Below, piece by piece: positions 275-9,049 of a DNA stretch of 9,252 nt. Positions within the stretch are counted from its first letter, which is position 1; each line of letters opens with the position of its first letter. Origin of the DNA: Pseudomonadota bacterium (GTDB lineage: Bacteria > Pseudomonadota > Gammaproteobacteria > Burkholderiales > Burkholderiaceae); NCBI GenBank assembly GCA_029777935.1, contig JAKORH010000242.1, positions 1-9,252 on the forward strand. The letters run 5' to 3'. Under the pieces are notes generated by a model that did no database searches, was not told the DNA's origin, and worked only from the letters and a program-made list of their open reading frames with translations. The translations under genes were made by a program, and so were the position numbers.

Positions 275-289
275 TGGCGTCCCCTAGGG
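275..289 (+). repeat. Left attachment-site direct repeat (attL core)
   Basis: TGGCGTCCCCTAGGG is identical, in the same orientation, to the last 15 bases (complement) of tRNA-Glu at 6922-6936. It covers CCA, the discriminator, the acceptor strand and the start of the T stem. Identity stops at position 290 (A here, G in the tRNA). It is the displaced 3' end of the original tRNA gene. Confidence 0.9.
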
Positions 290-476
290 ACCACGAAGCG
301 TGATCTACTGACGTTTTCGCGTTGTTTCTCGCTTTTGGCTTTTCCCTCTGAAAATCACTCAACTAGTCAGCTATCAGGCTATGACTGGCTATTGAAGTCT
401 CGCATTGATGCGGGTAATTTTCGGGGTAACGGACCGCTTTTACCCGCAGCGGTCCGGAACCGAGGGAGCCGCAGCG
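290..476 (+). promoter_or_regulatory. Integrase leader / left attachment arm with repeats and overlapping dyads
   Basis: This gene-free interval is less GC-rich than its surroundings. GCTAT occurs at 370, 378 and 388. TGCGGGTAA (409-417), six bases, then GGGTAA (424-429) match an arrangement at the other end of the element. Two perfect stems interleave: TGCGGGTAA (409-417) with TTACCCGCA (440-448), and CGGACCGC (430-437) with GCGGTCCG (449-456). They are mutually exclusive as simple hairpins. A weak promoter (TTGAAG 392-397, 17 bp, TAATTT 415-420) would overlap the arm-type repeat, so integrase binding could shut off its own transcription; that is inference. Shine-Dalgarno GAGGGAG (462-468) lies eight bases before the int start. 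Confidence 0.55.
409..429 (+). repeat. Left-end arm-type repeat (candidate integrase arm sites)
   Basis: TGCGGGTAA (409-417), six bases, then GGGTAA (424-429) is the counterpart of 6844-6864. An inverted TTACCC lies at 440-445. It is 120 bp inside the left attachment core and upstream of int, so that in the excised circle both arrays would flank the attP core. Confidence 0.55.
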
Positions 477-1724
477 ATGGCCGAGAAAGTTCTGAGCAGC
501 CGCAAGTGCGAAACCGCGAAGCCGCGCGAGAAACCGTATCGGCTGACCGATGGCGGCGGACTGAGCCTGCGGGTGATGCCGACCGGCGCGAAGTATTGGC
601 AATTCCGCTATCGCTTCGGCGAGAAGGAAAACACCCTGCAGATCGGCAGCCTGGCCGACGTGAGCCTCGAGAAAGCGCGCAAGGAACTGGCGAAGCATCG
701 CGACGTGCTGCGCGCCGGCAATGATCCGATTCAAGCGCGCAGGGTCGAGCGCGCGCGCAAGGTGCAGACAGCGGCCGAGACATTCGGCGCGATGGCGAGC
801 GAGTGGTTGCAGCACCGCAAGCCGGACATTGCCGCAGTCACGCACGAGCGCAATGAAGGCATCGTGCGCCGGCTGCTGATGCCGAAACTCGGCGCGCTGC
901 CAATGCGCGCGATCGACGCGACGGCGCTGATATCGGCGCTGCGCGCGGCCGAGCAAAAGGGAATCCGCATGTCGGCAAGGCGGGCGCGCATCATCGCGGG
1001 GCAGATATTCGGCTACGCCATCGCCACCGGGCGGGGCGCGACGAACCCGGCGCGCGACGTGACGAAGGCGCTCGCCAAGCGGCCGGAGACAACGCATCAC
1101 GCGGCGCTGAGTGTCGAGCAAATCGGCCCGATGCTGGCGGCGCTCGAAAGGAGCGGAACTTCTCTGGCGACGCGGGCGGCGCTGCTGCTGATGCTCTACA
1201 CGGGCCTGCGCGATGGATCGCTGCGCGGCGCGCAGTGGCGCGAGATCGACCTGAACGCGGCGCGCTGGAATATCCCGGCCGAGCGGATGAAGCGGCGCGA
1301 GGCGCATTCGGTGCCGCTGCCGAATCAGGCAATCGCGATCCTGCGGGAACTGGCGCAGTTGACCGATCGCGGGCCGGACTCATTCGTATTCGCCAGCTCC
1401 GGCAAGGCGGGCTATCTCGCGGAAAACACGCTGCGCATAACGCTGCACCGGCTTGGCTTCGAGGTAACGGCGCACGGGCTGCGCTCGCTGCTGACGGACG
1501 AGCTTTACAAGGCGGGCTTTCGGTCGGAATGGATCGAGCGCCAGTTGCACCACAAAGACCCGAACGAAGTGCGCGCGGCCTATCTGCGCACGGACTTCTA
1601 TGGGCAGCGCGTGCCGATGATGCAGTGGTGGGCCAATGCGTGCGATGCGCGCCGCGCCGGTCGAGCCGTGCCACCGCTGCCGGATGTTCCCGACTTCAAG
1701 CCGCAGCTCGCGCTCGCGGCCTGA
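477..1724 (+). CDS. int: P4-type tyrosine-recombinase integrase
   Basis: This 415-residue protein is a site-specific recombinase expected to insert and excise the element at the tRNA-Glu 3' end. The N-terminal ~90 residues (TAKPREKPYRLTDGGGLSL onward, with the KYW.FRYR segment) are the DUF4102 arm-binding domain of P4-like integrases; a core-binding domain follows at about 100-200, and the catalytic domain occupies about 210-380. Visible catalytic residues are R245 (TGLRDGSL), K272, H333 and R336 (HGLR), H359 (QLHH) and nucleophile Y369 (AAYLR). The usual Glu after TGLRxG is Ser here, a tolerable variation. I chose ATG 477, not an in-frame start at 405, because GAGGGAG lies eight bases upstream and the protein then begins as relatives do. 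Length is normal and the gene looks intact. Confidence 0.95.
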   Translation: MAEKVLSSRKCETAKPREKPYRLTDGGGLSLRVMPTGAKYWQFRYRFGEKENTLQIGSLADVSLEKARKELAKHRDVLRAGNDPIQARRVERARKVQTAAETFGAMASEWLQHRKPDIAAVTHERNEGIVRRLLMPKLGALPMRAIDATALISALRAAEQKGIRMSARRARIIAGQIFGYAIATGRGATNPARDVTKALAKRPETTHHAALSVEQIGPMLAALERSGTSLATRAALLLMLYTGLRDGSLRGAQWREIDLNAARWNIPAERMKRREAHSVPLPNQAIAILRELAQLTDRGPDSFVFASSGKAGYLAENTLRITLHRLGFEVTAHGLRSLLTDELYKAGFRSEWIERQLHHKDPNEVRAAYLRTDFYGQRVPMMQWWANACDARRAGRAVPPLPDVPDFKPQLALAA

Positions 1725-2501: not shown

Positions 2502-2559
2502 GTCCGCGCCTAGCCCGACGGGGCGAAAACCGGGTTCCCTTCACCCGGCCGGCGCGGAC
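2502..2559 (+). ncRNA. C4/P4-CI-like antisense RNA (structured leader)
   Basis: The + strand folds into a three-way junction. The outer stem is GTCCGCGCC (2502-2510) with GGCGCGGAC (2551-2559), nine perfect pairs. Inside are a small hairpin GCCC/GGGC (2513-2516, 2521-2524) and a strong hairpin CCGGGT/ACCCGG (2530-2535, 2543-2548) with loop TCCCTTC. CCCTTCA (2537-2543) is complementary to TGAAGGG (2568-2574) just ahead of the next gene. This matches the plan of C4 antisense RNA of phages P1/P7 and the CI RNA of P4: a short RNA with an exposed loop complementary to the leader of the adjacent gene. I recognised it by architecture, not by alignment. A second antisense contact is not clear. Confidence 0.65.
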
Positions 2560-2591
2560 TCTCCCCATGAAGGGCGGCGGGAGGGTGCGCC
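2559..2591 (+). promoter_or_regulatory. Shine-Dalgarno-sequestering hairpin, predicted target of the C4-like RNA
   Basis: CTCTCCC (2559-2565) can pair with GGGAGGG (2579-2585, one G-U), burying the Shine-Dalgarno of the gene starting at 2592. The hairpin loop displays TGAAGGG (2568-2574), the complement of the C4-like loop CCCTTCA. The leader could switch between a C4-bound and an unbound state and so control translation of the downstream gene. Complementarity is seen directly; regulation is inferred from the C4/P4 precedent. Confidence 0.55.
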
Positions 2592-3445: not shown

Positions 3446-3660
3446 AAAGGCCCGCCGCAACCGCCGTCGAGCGTGCCTGCGCAATCGACAGCGCGCGCGA
3501 ACGTCGCGGCGAGCGTGAATGGCTGCGCCTGCCGGTGCCGGGCGAGCTGCCGGCGACGTTCGATCCCGATAAACGAATTCTCGTCACGGTACTTGGGCTG
3601 GGTGTGCGGATGCGCATGGTCGTGCGCATCACGTCGCCGATGCCGGAGGGCGTGCAATGA
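3442..3660 (+). CDS. Small hypothetical protein in the replication operon
   Basis: This 72-residue frame is linked on both sides by four-base ATGA overlaps (with alpA at 3442-3445 and the zinc-finger gene at 3657-3660), a strong sign that it is translated. The N-terminal third is Arg-rich and helical. The second half (EWLRLPVPGELPATFDPDKR, then ILVTVLGLGVRMRMVVRI) looks like a small beta-rich domain. No known motif, signal peptide or transmembrane helix is evident. It may be an adaptor for the primase proteins encoded downstream, which is inference from position only. Confidence 0.7.
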   Translation: MKRPAATAVERACAIDSARERRGEREWLRLPVPGELPATFDPDKRILVTVLGLGVRMRMVVRITSPMPEGVQ

Positions 3661-3947
3661 CCGCCGACCGCCTGACGCGGATATTCCAACGCGAACGGCT
3701 GCCATCGCCAGCGGCTTACTTCGACGGCATCGGATTGAAGCTCGACGGACGCGGCGCGTGGCGCTCGGCGCTCTGCCCGTTCCACGCCGACTCGAGCCCG
3801 AGCCTGCGCGTTCGCATCGAAAGCGGCGCGTTCCGCTGCATGGCGTGCGGCGCGCACGGCGGCGACGTGCTCGCGTTCCATCGGCTTCGCACCGGCAAGG
3901 GCTTCATCGAGGCGGCGCGCGAACTCGACGCATGGGTGAGGCGATGA
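3657..3947 (+). CDS. Stand-alone CHC2-type zinc-finger (primase zinc-binding) protein
   Basis: The 96-residue product is essentially one DnaG-type CHC2 zinc finger. The ligands are C40 and H43 (CPFHADSSPSLRV) and C61 and C64 (GAFRCMACGAHGGDVLAF). In DnaG and phage primases this module binds template DNA and sits N-terminal to the catalytic and TOPRIM domains. Here it is a separate protein whose stop overlaps the start of the TOPRIM-DUF3987 gene (ATGA, 3944-3947), so the primase is encoded in pieces made from one transcript. Shine-Dalgarno GGAGGG (3645-3650) precedes the ATG. A working partnership with the downstream protein is inferred from the fusion of these domains elsewhere. Confidence 0.88.
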   Translation: MTADRLTRIFQRERLPSPAAYFDGIGLKLDGRGAWRSALCPFHADSSPSLRVRIESGAFRCMACGAHGGDVLAFHRLRTGKGFIEAARELDAWVRR

Positions 3948-6091
3948 CCGAAACGCCGAAAGAAGCCGCGCGCAGGCTCGGAGCATCGTTCATCGCGCAG
4001 GGCTATCAGCCGAGCGCGCTGCACGCCTACACGACGCGCGACGGCGCGCCGCTCTACTACCGGATGAGGTTGAAGCATCCGGACACCGGCGAGAAACAGA
4101 TTCGGCCGTTCCATGCAAACGGCGCCGGCTTCAAGTTCGGCGAGCCGAATTTCGGCGGCAAGCCGAAGCCGCTCTATCGCCTGCACGAGATTGCGGCGGC
4201 CGATCCCGCGCTGCCGGTCTGGTGGGTCGAGGGCGAGCAGAAGGCCGACGCGCTCGCGCGCCTGGGGCTGGTGGCAACGACGGCGGGCGGCGCGAACGAC
4301 GACGAGGGCCGCGACTTCGAGCCGCTGCGGGGCCGACAGGTCATCGTGTGGCCGGACAACGACGATCCCGGCCGACGGCACGCGCAGCGCGTGGCGGCGA
4401 GGCTGAAGCCGCTGGGCTGCACCGTCGAGCTGGTGGATATTGAGGCGCTGGCGCTCGACAAAGGCGGCGACGTAGTGGATTGGCTTGACGCGCATCCGAA
4501 CGCAACGGCGGCCGACCTGATGGCGTTGGCGCGGCTTCCTGCGGGCGAGGGAACTGCGACCGTGAGCGGCGCCGATGACTGGCCGGAACCTGCGCCGCTG
4601 CCGGCCGAACTGCCAAACGTGGAGCCGTTCGATTTCAAGCTGCTGCCGAACGCATTGCGGCCGTGGATTTCGGACATTGCCGATCGCGTGCAGTGTCCGC
4701 CGGACTTCCCCGCAGTGGCGGCGATGGTGGCGCTCGGCTCGGTGCTCGGCCGAAAGGTGTTCCTGCACCCGAAGCAGCTTGACGATTGGTACGAGGCTCC
4801 GAATCTGTGGGGTGCCATCGTGGGCCGGCCTGGGGTGCTGAAGTCTCCGGCACTGAACGAGGCGCTTCGGCCGCTGCGCGAACTCGAAGGCGCGGCAGCG
4901 CAGGCGCACGCGGCGGCGATGCGGGACTTTCAGGAGCAGAAGGCGCGGCGCGAGATCGAACGCGCCGCCGCCAAGGGAAACGCACTGAAGGCGGCAAAGC
5001 AGGGCAAAGGCTTCGATACGGCCGGCTTGCTCGATTGCGACGACGAAGAGCCGGCGCTGCGGCGCTACGTGGTGAACGATTCCAGCGTCGAGGCGCTCGG
5101 CGAAGTGCTGCGGACGAACTCAAACGGCGTGCTTGCATACCGCGATGAACTCGTCGGACTGCTGCGGCAGTTGGACGAAGAGGGAAACGAGGGCATGCGC
5201 TCGTTCTACCTGACGGCGTGGGCCGCGAAGGAGGGCTACACGTTCGACCGGATCGGGCGCGGACTGAATCGGCGCATTGATGCCGTTTGCCTTTCGGTGC
5301 TCGGCAGCATTCAGCCGGCCGTGCTCGGCGACTATCTGCGCGAAGCCGTGCGGCATGGCGGCGGCGACGGTCTGATAGCGCGCTTCGGCCTGTTGACGTG
5401 GCCGGACGTTTCCGGCGAGTGGCGCGATATCGACCGGCTGCCGGACTCGGATGCGAAGGAAACCGCATTCGCCGCGTTTCGCCGCTTCGATGCGCTGCGG
5501 CCGAAGGATGTCGGCGCGGAGCGGCATTTCGGCGATGTCTATGCGCTGCGATTCGAGGCGAACGCCTATGGCTGCTTCCGCGACTGGCGCGAGCAATTCG
5601 AGTGCGAACAACGCAGCGCCGAGTCGCACGACATGCACCCGGCGCTGACGGGGCACCGCGAGAAATACCGCAAGCTCGTTCCGGCGCTGGCGCTGATCTG
5701 CCACCTGGCCGACACGCCCGACGGCGGGCCGGTCAGTACCGACGCGCTGCTGCGGGCGCTCGAATGGACGCGCTACGCCGAGTCGCACGCACGGCGGGCC
5801 TACGCCAGTGTGATCCGGGCGGACGTTGACGGCGCGCGCGAGCTGCTGAAGCGAATCCAAAAGGGCGCGGTATCTGATGGCTTCCGCGCGCGCGAGGTGT
5901 ACCGCAACGGATGGGCACGGCTCGGGCAGCCGGAGCAAGTGAAGCAGGCTGCAGAACTGCTCGCCGAATTCGACTACCTGCGGGAAGAGCGCGAAGAGAC
6001 GCTCGGGCGATGGACAAGCCGCTATTTCATCAATCCGAGGGTGCTCGCCGAGGCACGCGAATATTTCAGAACGGCCGCCGATGGGCACTGA
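3944..6091 (+). CDS. TOPRIM-DUF3987 replication protein (primase/helicase-like)
   Basis: This 715-residue protein is the main replication enzyme candidate. A TOPRIM domain occupies about residues 75-185, with acidic residues E96 (WWVEGEQKAD) and D138/D140 (VIVWPDNDDPG). A linker is followed by a DUF3987 domain from ~228, with PNLWGAIVGRPGVLKSPAL carrying a Walker-A-like GRPGVLKS (294-301) and a Walker-B-like VLAYRDEL (396-403). A charged helical insertion (~315-355) separates the two. DUF3987 proteins are P-loop ATPases common in integrated elements and satellites, usually with primase-type domains; helicase or origin-binding activity is the usual inference. I chose ATG 3944 because it overlaps the previous stop by four bases after GAGG. 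A 16-bp inverted-repeat arm and the first iteron fall within its 3' end. Confidence 0.9.
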   Translation: MTETPKEAARRLGASFIAQGYQPSALHAYTTRDGAPLYYRMRLKHPDTGEKQIRPFHANGAGFKFGEPNFGGKPKPLYRLHEIAAADPALPVWWVEGEQKADALARLGLVATTAGGANDDEGRDFEPLRGRQVIVWPDNDDPGRRHAQRVAARLKPLGCTVELVDIEALALDKGGDVVDWLDAHPNATAADLMALARLPAGEGTATVSGADDWPEPAPLPAELPNVEPFDFKLLPNALRPWISDIADRVQCPPDFPAVAAMVALGSVLGRKVFLHPKQLDDWYEAPNLWGAIVGRPGVLKSPALNEALRPLRELEGAAAQAHAAAMRDFQEQKARREIERAAAKGNALKAAKQGKGFDTAGLLDCDDEEPALRRYVVNDSSVEALGEVLRTNSNGVLAYRDELVGLLRQLDEEGNEGMRSFYLTAWAAKEGYTFDRIGRGLNRRIDAVCLSVLGSIQPAVLGDYLREAVRHGGGDGLIARFGLLTWPDVSGEWRDIDRLPDSDAKETAFAAFRRFDALRPKDVGAERHFGDVYALRFEANAYGCFRDWREQFECEQRSAESHDMHPALTGHREKYRKLVPALALICHLADTPDGGPVSTDALLRALEWTRYAESHARRAYASVIRADVDGARELLKRIQKGAVSDGFRAREVYRNGWARLGQPEQVKQAAELLAEFDYLREEREETLGRWTSRYFINPRVLAEAREYFRTAADGH

Positions 6092-6171
6092 CAGAACTGA
6101 CAAAAGGGGGGCAAGGGGGGCTTCTGTCGGTTTTGTCAGTGGCGTGCGGGGCACATTCTGAAATATTCGCG
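6056..6171. other. Nested dyad with iterons: candidate replication origin
   Basis: A perfect 16-bp inverted repeat, CGCGAATATTTCAGAA (6056-6071) and TTCTGAAATATTCGCG (6156-6171), encloses an inner array: ACTGACA at 6087-6093 and 6096-6102 in direct orientation, then the inverted copies TGTCGGT (6125-6131, one mismatch) and TGTCAGT (6134-6140), each pair offset by nine bases. Two G6 runs (6106-6111, 6115-6120) lie at the centre. The left arm and first iteron are inside the coding end of the TOPRIM-DUF3987 gene. Paired iterons in a dyad next to a replication gene are the usual form of satellite and plasmid origins. A terminator or operator function cannot be excluded. Confidence 0.6.
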
Positions 6172-6223
6172 GGGTCGGAGCTGCGAAGTTGCGCCGGTGG
6201 ATTTCGATTAATCCAAGCTATCG

Positions 6224-6784
6224 ATGGGTGGCGACGGATCGGGTAACTACGGCTGGCGGCATCGGGTCGAGCATTACCCGGCGCTGAAGGTCCGGCTCTT
6301 GAAAGAGAGCGGTGCGCTGGCGGCCGGCGTGCGTGTTCTCTGGCACTGGCCGCAGCATGACGTGCGGGCCTGGGTAAGCGCGAGCGAGCGCGAGATACGC
6401 ATCGACTTCGAGAATCCAGAGCGCGGCTTTTTCGGCGGGTGGATCGCCATCGTGGATCAGCCCGCGGGCTTCGGCGGCGTGCGGCGATTCTTTCTCTGTC
6501 CGAGCTGCGGAGACCGGCGCTCGGCGCTGTACCTGCATCACGGGCGCTTCAGTTGCCGGGTCTGCGCCGGACTGCGCTACCTGACGCAGACGATGGACTT
6601 CTACGACCGACAGCAGCGCGCGATGGCAAAGCTCGAAGCGAAGCTCACGGACGAAGGCGGCAAGCCCAAGCGGATGCGCTGGCGAACTTTCGAGCGAATC
6701 CGCGAGCAGTGGGGCCAGCGCGACACGGCACACGGCGCGGCACTCGACGCATCTACGGCGCGGCTGTTCGCGCGGTGGGGATGA
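6224..6784 (+). CDS. Zinc-ribbon hypothetical protein of mobile elements
   Basis: The 186-residue product starts with a Gly-rich segment (MGGDGSGNYGWRHR) and has a treble-clef or ribbon-like zinc site: C92 and C95 (FLCPSCG), then C111 and C114 (GRFSCRVCAGLRY). The C-terminal half is basic and helical (residues ~125-165). Similar Gly-start proteins with a CPxCG...CRxCxGL pair are common hypotheticals in phages and genomic islands; their function is unknown to me. ATG 6224 is the first start after an in-frame stop at 6209-6211, but there is no good Shine-Dalgarno. It lies 130 bp beyond the replication gene, separated by the dyad, so it probably has its own promoter. Nucleic-acid binding is plausible. 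Confidence 0.8.
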   Translation: MGGDGSGNYGWRHRVEHYPALKVRLLKESGALAAGVRVLWHWPQHDVRAWVSASEREIRIDFENPERGFFGGWIAIVDQPAGFGGVRRFFLCPSCGDRRSALYLHHGRFSCRVCAGLRYLTQTMDFYDRQQRAMAKLEAKLTDEGGKPKRMRWRTFERIREQWGQRDTAHGAALDASTARLFARWG

Positions 6785-6921: not shown

Positions 6922-6936
6922 TGGCGTCCCCTAGGG
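6922..6936 (+). repeat. Right attachment-site direct repeat (attR core, within tRNA-Glu)
   Basis: This copy, identical to 275-289, completes the tRNA-Glu 3' end (CCA, discriminator G, acceptor strand and the first T-stem bases), so integration leaves a functional tRNA. Typical of integrases that use tRNA 3' ends. Confidence 0.9.
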
Positions 6937-6997
6937 GATTCGAACCCCTGTTATCGCCGTGAAAGGGCGGTGTCCTAGGCCTCTAGACGAAGGGGAC
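6922..6997 (-). tRNA. tRNA-Glu (anticodon TTC)
   Basis: The reverse complement is a 76-nt tRNA with encoded CCA, closely resembling E. coli tRNA-Glu. The acceptor stem GTCCCCT/AGGGGAC is perfect, the T loop is TTCGAAT, and the anticodon loop CTTTCAC gives TTC. The lowest anticodon-stem pair is a C-A mismatch (C27/A43, plus positions 6970 and 6954), where E. coli has C-G. It is the second gene of the Ala-Glu operon and the integration target. Its last 15 nt now come from the element's attachment site. Confidence 0.98.
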
Positions 6998-7645: not shown

Positions 7646-9049
7646 TCAGGCCGCACTATGCGCGAGCGCCGCGCGCAGTCGCTGCAGAACGGTCTCGCGG
7701 CCGAACAGCTCGAGCACGGCGTCGATCGAAGGCGTCTGCGTGCGCCCGGTGACCGCGACGCGCAGCGGCACGGCAAGCTGCGGCAGCCTGATGCCGAACT
7801 CGCCGACCAGTTGCTTCAGCAGCGCCGATAGCGCGGCGCGCTCCCACTCGGCGCCGGCCGCGCGCAGCTCGAAGGCGCGCACGGCGTCGAGGCTCCTGCC
7901 GCTCAGGTGCTGCCGCAGCAGGGCCGGGTCGATCGCATGCGCGCCGTAGAAGAGCATCGCCTCGTCGGCCAGCTCGTTCAGCGTGCGCGCCCGCTGCTTC
8001 AGCAACGCGACGACGGCCTCGAGCGCCGGGCCGGCGATGGTGCCGCCGCGCTGCTCGATGCGCGGCGCCACCAGCTTCGCGAGCCGCGCGTCGCCGGCTT
8101 CCTTGATGTACTCGCCGTTGAGCCACAGCAGCTTGTCGAGGTTGTACTGCGCCGGCGCGCGGTTCACATGGTCGAGGTCGAACCACTGGATCAACTGTTC
8201 GCGCGTGAACTTCTCGTCGTCACCATGGCTCCAGCCGAGCCGCGCCAGGTAGTTGAACAACGCCTCGGGCAGAAAGCCGTCCTCGTCGTACTGCAGCACG
8301 CTCACCGCGCCGTGGCGCTTCGACAGCTTCTGTCCGTCGGGCCCGAGGATCATCGACAGGTGGCCGAAGGCCGGCAGGTCCGCGCCGAGCGCCCGGTAGA
8401 TGTTGATCTGGCGCGGCGAGTTGTTGACGTGATCGTCGCCGCGGAGCACGTGCGTGATCCGCATGTCGATGTCGTCGACCACGACGGCGAAGTTGTAGGT
8501 CGGCACGAGATGGGCGCCGCGCGCGATCACGAGGTCGTCCAGCTCGGCGTTGGCGATCGAGATCGGCCCCTTGACCAGGTCGCTCCACGCGACCTCGCCG
8601 TCATCGGGATTGCGGAAGCGGATCACCGGATTCACGCCGGCGGGCGGCGTCCTGCCGCGCGCGTTCTCGGGCCGCCAGCGGCCGTCGTATCTGGGCTTCT
8701 CGTTGCGCGCCATCTGCTGCTGGCGCATTTCTTCCAGTTCCTCGACGGTCGCGTAGCAACGGTAAGCCTTGCCCTCGGCGAGCAGCCGGTCAATCACCTC
8801 GCGGTAGCGCGGCAGCCGATCGGTCTGGCGGATCGGCCCCTCGTCGTAGTCGAGCCCGAGCCAGTGCATCGAATCGACGATCGCGCGCACCGCTTCTTCG
8901 GTCGAGCGCTCCAGATCCGTGTCCTCGATGCGCAGGATGAACTGCCCGCCGAAATGGCGCGCGTACGCCCACGAGAACAACGCGGTGCGCGCCGTGCCCA
9001 GGTGCAGCATCCCCGTCGGGCTCGGTGCAATTCGAGTACGGACAGTCAT
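7646..9049 (-). CDS. gltX: Glutamyl-tRNA synthetase
   Basis: Charges tRNA-Glu with glutamate using ATP in the cytoplasm. The 467-residue protein is full length for bacterial GluRS. The class I signatures are present: the HIGH equivalent in [18 protein letters not shown] (residues 7-24, HLGT at 16-19), [11 protein letters not shown] (39-49), and the KMSKS equivalent KLSKRHG (241-247). The insertion region has C98 (YRCYAT) but YDGRWRPE where some GluRS have further zinc ligands, so the E. coli-type zinc site is probably absent. ATG 9049 is preferred over an upstream GTG at 9091 because the protein then begins [13 protein letters not shown] as expected, although only a weak GGGG precedes it. It is encoded beside its own substrate, tRNA-Glu. 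Confidence 0.97.

Follow-up and report, generated by a model that had tools for sequence, protein, structure and literature searches.

A mirrored iteron dyad at the 3' end of a TOPRIM-DUF3987 gene: a candidate replication origin of a small integrative element in a Burkholderiaceae contig

Here, we analysed a stretch of 9,252 nucleotides (contig JAKORH010000242.1 of assembly GCA_029777935.1, a Pseudomonadota bacterium of the Burkholderiaceae), called the window throughout. It carries an integrated element of approximately 6.65 kb, sited in a tRNA-Glu gene and bounded by 15-bp att repeats (275-289 and 6922-6936). The order of its features is integrase, int-alpA RNA, open reading frames (ORFs) without a named family, AlpA, CHC2, TOPRIM-DUF3987, a nested inverted repeat (the dyad) and a gene for a 186-aa protein. 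The dyad, which is most likely the replication origin of this element, consists of the following parts.

6056..6071, + strand: left outer arm, CGCGAATATTTCAGAA, coding, 10 of 16 bases A or T
6088..6105, + strand: left iteron pair, CTGACAGAA CTGACAAAA, 9-bp units aimed at the centre
6106..6121, no strand assigned: spacer GGGGGGCAAGGGGGGC between the iteron pairs, 2 of 16 bases A or T
6122..6139, - strand: right iteron pair, CTGACAAAA CCGACAGAA as read on the - strand
6156..6171, - strand: right outer arm, TTCTGAAATATTCGCG, non-coding

An earlier reading of the window, made from the letters alone (the sequence-only reading), had described here a perfect 16-bp inverted repeat enclosing two ACTGACA copies mirrored by TGTCGGT and TGTCAGT, with a 9-bp period in both pairs and two G6 runs, and the coordinates agree in every point. 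The ACTGACA copies start at 6087 and 6096, TGTCGGT at 6125 and TGTCAGT at 6134, while the G6 runs occupy 6106-6111 and 6115-6120. The two outer arms match exactly, even though the dyad is partly coding as had been said: the DUF3987 gene ends with a TGA codon (6089-6091) that falls inside the first ACTGACA, thus the left outer arm is coding and the iterons are nearly all non-coding. The peptides quoted from the two strands (LTELTK...SVLSV and LTKPTE...SVLSV) are both in the ORF list. The claim that such symmetry is far beyond chance held for the dyad as a whole and less so for its arms. The DNA fold of 6056-6171 reaches -36.8 kcal/mol in comparison to -14.3 +/- 2.5 for shuffles (z = -9.0, equalled by 0/200). 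However, one of 300 first-order Markov copies of the window also had a perfect inverted repeat of 16 bp within 200 bp, so that the 16-bp arms alone are notable and not extreme. A search for ACTGACANNACTGACA with at most two mismatches gave 2 matches against 0.01 expected, and the canonical iteron C[CT]GACA[AG]AA has four copies in the element, all of them within the dyad, which is itself present as one copy in the window.

The other features of the element, with the att core within the tRNA gene, are these.

275..289, + strand: att core TGGCGTCCCCTAGGG, far end, 15-bp repeat
453..1724, + strand: tyrosine recombinase (integrase), start position provisional
2503..2573, + strand: int-alpA RNA (RF02996), 69.3 bits, above the gathering score
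3230..3445, + strand: AlpA regulator/excisionase, from a domain match
3657..3947, + strand: CHC2 zinc-ribbon primase part, overlapping the start of the DUF3987 gene
3944..6091, + strand: protein of 715 aa with TOPRIM, DUF3987 and a C-terminal winged helix, candidate initiator
5888..5905, + strand: codons of residues 649-654 (AREVYR), helix 2 of the winged helix and start of the turn
6224..6784, + strand: gene for the 186-aa protein after the dyad, no family named, weak zinc-ribbon match below the cut-off
6922..6936, + strand: att core TGGCGTCCCCTAGGG within the tRNA-Glu 3' end (tRNA 6922-6997, - strand)

The int-alpA RNA lies between int and alpA, as in RF02996 elements. The 715-aa protein matches DUF3987 with 260.6 bits and Toprim_2 with 19.3 bits, the latter below the cut-off, and PADLOC gave a single match, RTasDnaG-like, to residues 70-184 of the same protein. 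Relatives of the 186-aa protein (30-33% identity) stand near other DUF3987 genes (L021, L023 and L053; L numbers denote loci), where the iterons are different.

DUF3987 was modelled as an MCM-like AAA+ helicase, the predicted model showing the AAA+ fold. In the models, residues 649-653 lie in helix 2 of the winged helix and residue 654 at the start of the turn, with helix 3 and the wing following. The term 'recognition helix' for residues 649-654 was an assumption and was dropped, as the models place helix 2 and the turn there. A sequence search of solved structures gave seven matches, the best with E = 0.069, and five of them were TOPRIM proteins. In the parts of PMC5862659 that we saw, helicase activity is predicted for DUF3987 and the winged helices of such primases are suggested as possible readers of origins, with no sites given in that text.

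The dyad recurs at the 3' ends of DUF3987 genes. The sequence-only reading had proposed a search of genomes for the dyad and its distance to such genes, and stated that ACTGACA-type arrays recur near DUF3987 or primase genes of other proteobacterial elements. In 398 Pseudomonadota genomes the strict dyad pattern matched in one genome only, at two places, both approximately 65 bases 3' of DUF3987 genes. A looser pattern matched 11 viral contigs; in two of these (L004, L005) a DUF3987 gene has the array at its 3' end, and in a third (L012) the array is upstream of the DUF3987 gene, with single motifs downstream. A BLAST of the dyad consensus against phages found no match.

We then started from the protein family. 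At E <= 0.001, PF13148 matched 38 of the 369 genomes searched from one class and 58 of the 398 from one phylum. The 3' ends were rated by a dyad score built on four 7-mers in two direct pairs of period 8-10, mirrored (maximum 42). The scored stretch opens 60 bases ahead of each stop codon and extends 340 bases beyond it; this choice, like the score and the threshold, was made once some loci had been inspected. Family searches supplied 77 of the 81 genes in the set; the other four are the window gene, yfjI of E. coli and two genes on plasmids (L098 was dropped). The set includes related loci, and L064 and L085 are in the genome also matched by the pattern scan. An inverted set of 8-10-bp direct repeats scoring at least 36 stands at the 3' end of 40 of the 81 genes (38 of 77 without the window and the three named records). 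The controls at this threshold gave 1/972 shuffles, 0/81 and 1/80 gene-body windows, 1/73 upstream and 2/76 farther downstream (L039, L044). At a score of at least 33 the count was 45/81, against 19/972 shuffles, 2/81 and 1/80 in the gene body, 2/73 upstream and 8/76 farther downstream. Against the first gene-body window the Fisher test at a score of at least 36 gave p = 3e-15, kinship uncorrected. The period is 9 bp in 29 and 8 bp in 9 of the 40 dyads. In an enlarged set of 67 dyads (L004 and L005 included), the start of 64 falls no earlier than 60 bases ahead of the stop codon, which is the edge of the scored stretch, and no later than 87 bases past it. An AT-rich opening element was not found: the mean AT excess over the 67 dyads is at most 0.05 per 50-bp bin and 0.06 in the spacers.

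Two candidate sets of relatives were set aside. A scan of genome contigs with the whole protein gave one match (L001), which covers residues 6-201 only and is without a dyad; no DUF3987 was found in that genome. The search for phage relatives by tblastn returned 62 records, and the matches listed (30 of 62) cover only the first ~207 residues.

Several loci show arrangements of their own. An Acinetobacter plasmid record (L080:4590-4632) has a perfect dyad with a score of 42, 6 bases past a YfjI-family gene, and aminoglycoside resistance genes lie approximately 2 kb from it. Beside the DUF3987 gene of L352 an iteron pair occurs three times at 54-bp steps (4520-4640), with a further array ~0.7 kb on (5366-5430). 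Two iteron dyads near one DUF3987 gene were seen twice, ~1 kb apart in L031 (2911-2968 and 3918-3989) and ~0.1 kb apart in L029 (1000-1044 and 1133-1175). In L007 a TGACA iteron dyad (7738-7795) lies inside the 3' end of a gene for an AAA_25 helicase-type protein (7675-8919, - strand) with a weak IclR-type helix-turn-helix toward its C-terminus, the same arrangement with a third helicase family.

The iterons change in sequence from locus to locus. How similar two sets of iterons are is hardly related to the similarity of the whole proteins (r = 0.09). The window's nearest clade comprises 56 genes including L004 and L012 (both chosen by pattern), and 44 of these score at least 33; of its 15 family-search genes, 10 reach 33 and 9 reach 36. 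The usual unit in this clade is C-[CT]-b3-b4-C-[AG]-R-A-A, with CTGAC, CCGAC, CTGCC, CCTAC, CCCCC, CCCTC, CCATC and others as its cores. The frame was matched with the units aimed at the centre in 35 of the 44 loci and no locus was found with units aimed outward, although L266 has an off-frame unit possibly readable as outward. The hallmark of the family is the arrangement with locus-specific iterons; arrays of the ACTGACA type do occur at DUF3987 genes, but ACTGACA itself is not the hallmark. The outer 16-bp arms and the G6 runs gave no sign of generality among the relatives, in which no systematic test was made.

Two further period classes were noted. In a mostly 8-bp-period class (TGCGCCAG, TGTCGCCA and others; L090, L092, L094, L096, L097) the left iterons still belong to the last part of the coding frame, some being translated as CANCAN-like tails, and the spacers (45-56 bp) have a higher AT content than the sequence around them. 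A 10-bp-period class (ACCAGTAAAA; ACCCCCTAAA) comprises L323, L324, L325, L326 and L334; it has a different helix 2, with E followed by R, K or N, or S-D, at 653-654.

In order to seek the reader of the iterons, we compared the iteron core with every variable column of the DUF3987 protein (403 columns, 32 non-redundant proteins after 9 near-identical rows had been dropped from 41). The iteron labels were set by hand for L029, L126, L061, L216, L211, L060 and L245; L206 and L266 were left out as the automatic register failed, and L265 for its 8-bp period. Residue 654 ranked first for the core, base 2 and base 3 (z = 6.0, 6.2 and 10.5, respectively). Columns 649 and 653 ranked second and fifth for the core; base 4 was led by column 571, followed by 653, with 654 in fourth place. 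All 20 of 20 proteins with Arg654 have G at iteron base 3, against 1 of the 12 with another residue (p = 9e-8). Without the eleven first-inspected loci the counts were 12/12 and 1/9 (p = 4e-5), and without L004 as well, which had been fetched earlier, 11/11 and 1/9 (p = 7e-5). In a register-free test, which uses no iteron labels, 654 was second and 0/10000 permutations were as high.

The link also persisted when kinship was taken into account. The tree was built without the winged helix; it is a quick tree with weak deep branches, in which near-identical rows were kept. On supported (starred) branches seven independent pairs differ at 654, base 3 agrees in 6.8 of them on average and never goes the opposite way (sign test, p = 0.016-0.031). 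With the same test applied to all 403 columns, 654 reached 6.8 and any other column at most 2.96. At four places of the tree (L255, L261, L262 and L248/L128) proteins with Lys and CCCCC iterons are neighbours of proteins with Arg and either CTGAC or CCGAC. In a second clade R goes with GCGAC in 4/4 loci (L058, L059, L218, L027) and Q with GCTA in 6/6 (L030, L032, L052, L055, L056, L217), a rule read by eye, after the fact and without a tree, with L057 (R, score 31) and L081 (near L030) left out. The co-variation suggests that residue 654 of the winged helix may read iteron base 3.

Further loci, to which the base-3 rule was applied after it had been written down, bear on how far it extends. 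It fits L363, the sole new 9-bp locus over all thresholds, as well as L319, L352 and L357 (scores below 33), L369 (a fragment below the threshold of the hidden Markov model) and, with 10-bp repeats, L323 and L324. The fit of L363 and the failures within the 10-bp class, given below, indicate that the rule belongs to the 9-bp subfamily.

We propose that the dyad is the initiator-loading site, and most likely the replication origin, of the ~6.65-kb element, bound by the element's own TOPRIM-DUF3987 protein through its winged helix; we put the probability of this reading at roughly 0.77. The site of the dyad, its position, its recurrence with changed sequence 3' of DUF3987 genes and the co-variation of the core with residue 654 are direct observations, whereas we infer that the protein binds directly and with one domain per iteron, that DNA is opened and primed, and that copying starts at the dyad. 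The function as an origin comes chiefly by analogy with the origins of phage-inducible chromosomal islands (PICIs; PMC6092414) and with the binding of Cch2 (PMC7581432). The C-terminal winged helix would bind the dyad with one domain per 9-bp iteron, and, with the two iteron pairs converging, a pair of AAA+ helicase assemblies would be set face to face. The AAA+ rings might then open the DNA at the dyad or beside it, and the TOPRIM part together with the separate CHC2 finger may make the primers. More tentatively, and at somewhat under even odds, DUF3987 proteins might be bacterial MCM-like initiator helicases which find the 3' end of their own gene by a residue-base code. In such a code 654 would set base 3 (Arg for G, Lys mostly for CCCCC, Gln or Val for no G), origin specificity would be switched by changing 654 and all iterons together, and the inverted iterons would load two head-to-head rings.

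A number of points weigh against these proposals. The sequence-only reading had named homologous elements with the same rep gene and no dyad as evidence against an origin: next to the 40 genes with a dyad, 41 of the 81, about half, are without one by score. One of them, yfjI of E. coli K-12 (L078:5986-7395, in CP4-57, annotated as a cryptic prophage), scores 31 and has no clear dyad downstream. As the spacer is GC-rich, there is no counterpart between the iteron pairs to the AT-rich melting region that PICI origins have. The base-3 link was worded only after the loci of the column scan were in hand. A first rule, drawn from the eleven loci, had let two residues of the motif ARDVYRxxW (653 and 654) give the whole core; among the 9 later loci to which it applied, it gave the exact core in only 3 (L244, L127, L216) and misfitted L004, L210, L126, L252, L249 and L258. 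The base-3 rule, although written beforehand, failed in 3 of the 5 relatives that have 10-bp repeats (L325, L326, L334); a one-base frame shift would rescue L325 and L326, but after the fact. L212 has Ile654 with G. The nearly invariant His571 tops both the register-free test and base 4, a ranking perhaps due to chance because few rows differ. Finally, residue 654 lies just past helix 2 and not in helix 3, and helix 3 is the usual reading helix.

Four other explanations were considered. The dyad could be an operator through which the DUF3987 protein controls its own operon or the next gene, the origin being elsewhere. Such a role would suit a site between two genes with only four canonical iterons, and the co-variation indicates a probable reader and not a purpose. 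However, the dyad stands 3' of the rep gene instead of preceding int, alpA or the rep operon, the stretch 5900-6300 gave no promoter-like match, and the place equals that of PICI origins; we regard an operator as unlikely. That the iterons are read by another protein, such as AlpA, the integrase or a host factor, is quite improbable: further proteins of the element do bind DNA and the scan covered columns of the DUF3987 protein only, but within it the core co-varies with one winged-helix residue far above the other columns.

The strong hairpin, together with one small terminator-like match within the dyad, could also mean that the gene ends in a transcription terminator or RNA hairpin. Yet a T run (6 of 8 T, either strand) follows none of the 67 dyads, the window included, a hairpin needs no 9-bp direct repeats inside its arms, and the bases of the iterons vary in step with one amino acid of a DNA-binding domain. 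The Rfam search of the dyad gave one chance-level miRNA match, at 20 bits against a cut-off of 70. A terminator is thus very improbable. A mobile hairpin repeat (of the repetitive extragenic palindromic or miniature inverted-repeat transposable element type) landed here by chance is scarcely credible, for although 8 of the 10 looser-pattern viral records other than L004 have TGACA arrays and yielded no DUF3987, the dyads keep to the stop codon as given above (64/67 within the scored stretch), differ in sequence per locus and occur once in the window.

Under the preferred reading as an initiator-loading site, DUF3987, a widespread family of function so far unassigned, gains a candidate role and a cis-site. 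The origins of many small integrative elements could then be found from the protein gene alone and sorted by specificity, and the parallel change of one residue and all origin repeats would be a natural experiment on the co-evolution of initiator and origin. In the parts of the open-licence literature that were seen, we did not meet the DUF3987 helicase family in this setting, the element type, mirrored 8-10-bp locus-specific iterons or the residue-base link.

By analogy, the place of the putative origin is a known design, that of the PICIs and the Staphylococcus aureus pathogenicity islands (SaPIs), here with another helicase family. According to the parts of PMC6092414 that we saw, the PICI origin is a stretch 3' of the initiator gene with two iteron sets, pri-rep-ori of EcCICFT073 was tested in a plasmid, and Gram-negative PICIs carry an integrase and AlpA. 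The window element likewise has integrase and AlpA, and two iteron sets directly 3' of its candidate initiator gene. In L124, which we took as EcCICFT073 by place and gene content, 9-bp-spaced repeats run in both directions past the primase gene, as in the window; its dyad score is only 30 since the repeat sets are farther apart. The CFT073 primase has D5_N, DUF5906 and Pox_D5 domains, whereas the window protein has TOPRIM and DUF3987. The PICI iteron sets flank an AT-rich region, while the window spacer is short and GC-rich, and the capsid-type genes which follow in CFT073 were not found among the window ORFs scanned. MCM helicases show 9-18% identity among the matches listed, with the MCM N-terminal domain unmatched, and unlike them the window protein has a TOPRIM primase fused in front.

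Closer to the proposed mode of binding, the portion of PMC7581432 available to us reports that the helicase Cch2 of the staphylococcal cassette chromosome mec (SCCmec) uses its C-terminal domain to bind direct repeats at a putative origin 3' of the gene that encodes it, with a similar description for SaPI Rep. Cch2 differs in that inverted repeats are dispensable for its binding and only three 5-nt repeats are present; it is compared there with the D5 family, and its neighbour genes are other than those of the window. The phage-inducible chromosomal minimalist islands (PICMIs) of Vibrio are, as far as PMC10803314 was seen, small elements that encode an integrase, AlpA and a primase detected through DUF3987 and DUF5906, a combination shared by the window element. 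Their model has a mandatory Fis-type regulator, for which seven window ORFs gave no PF02954 match (the ORF at ~1748-2440 lay outside the Pfam scan), and their prim is required for full copy number; an origin sequence does not appear in that text. A further parallel is RepA of the PICI-like elements (PLEs), which binds satellite iterons according to the part of PMC7145576 that we saw.

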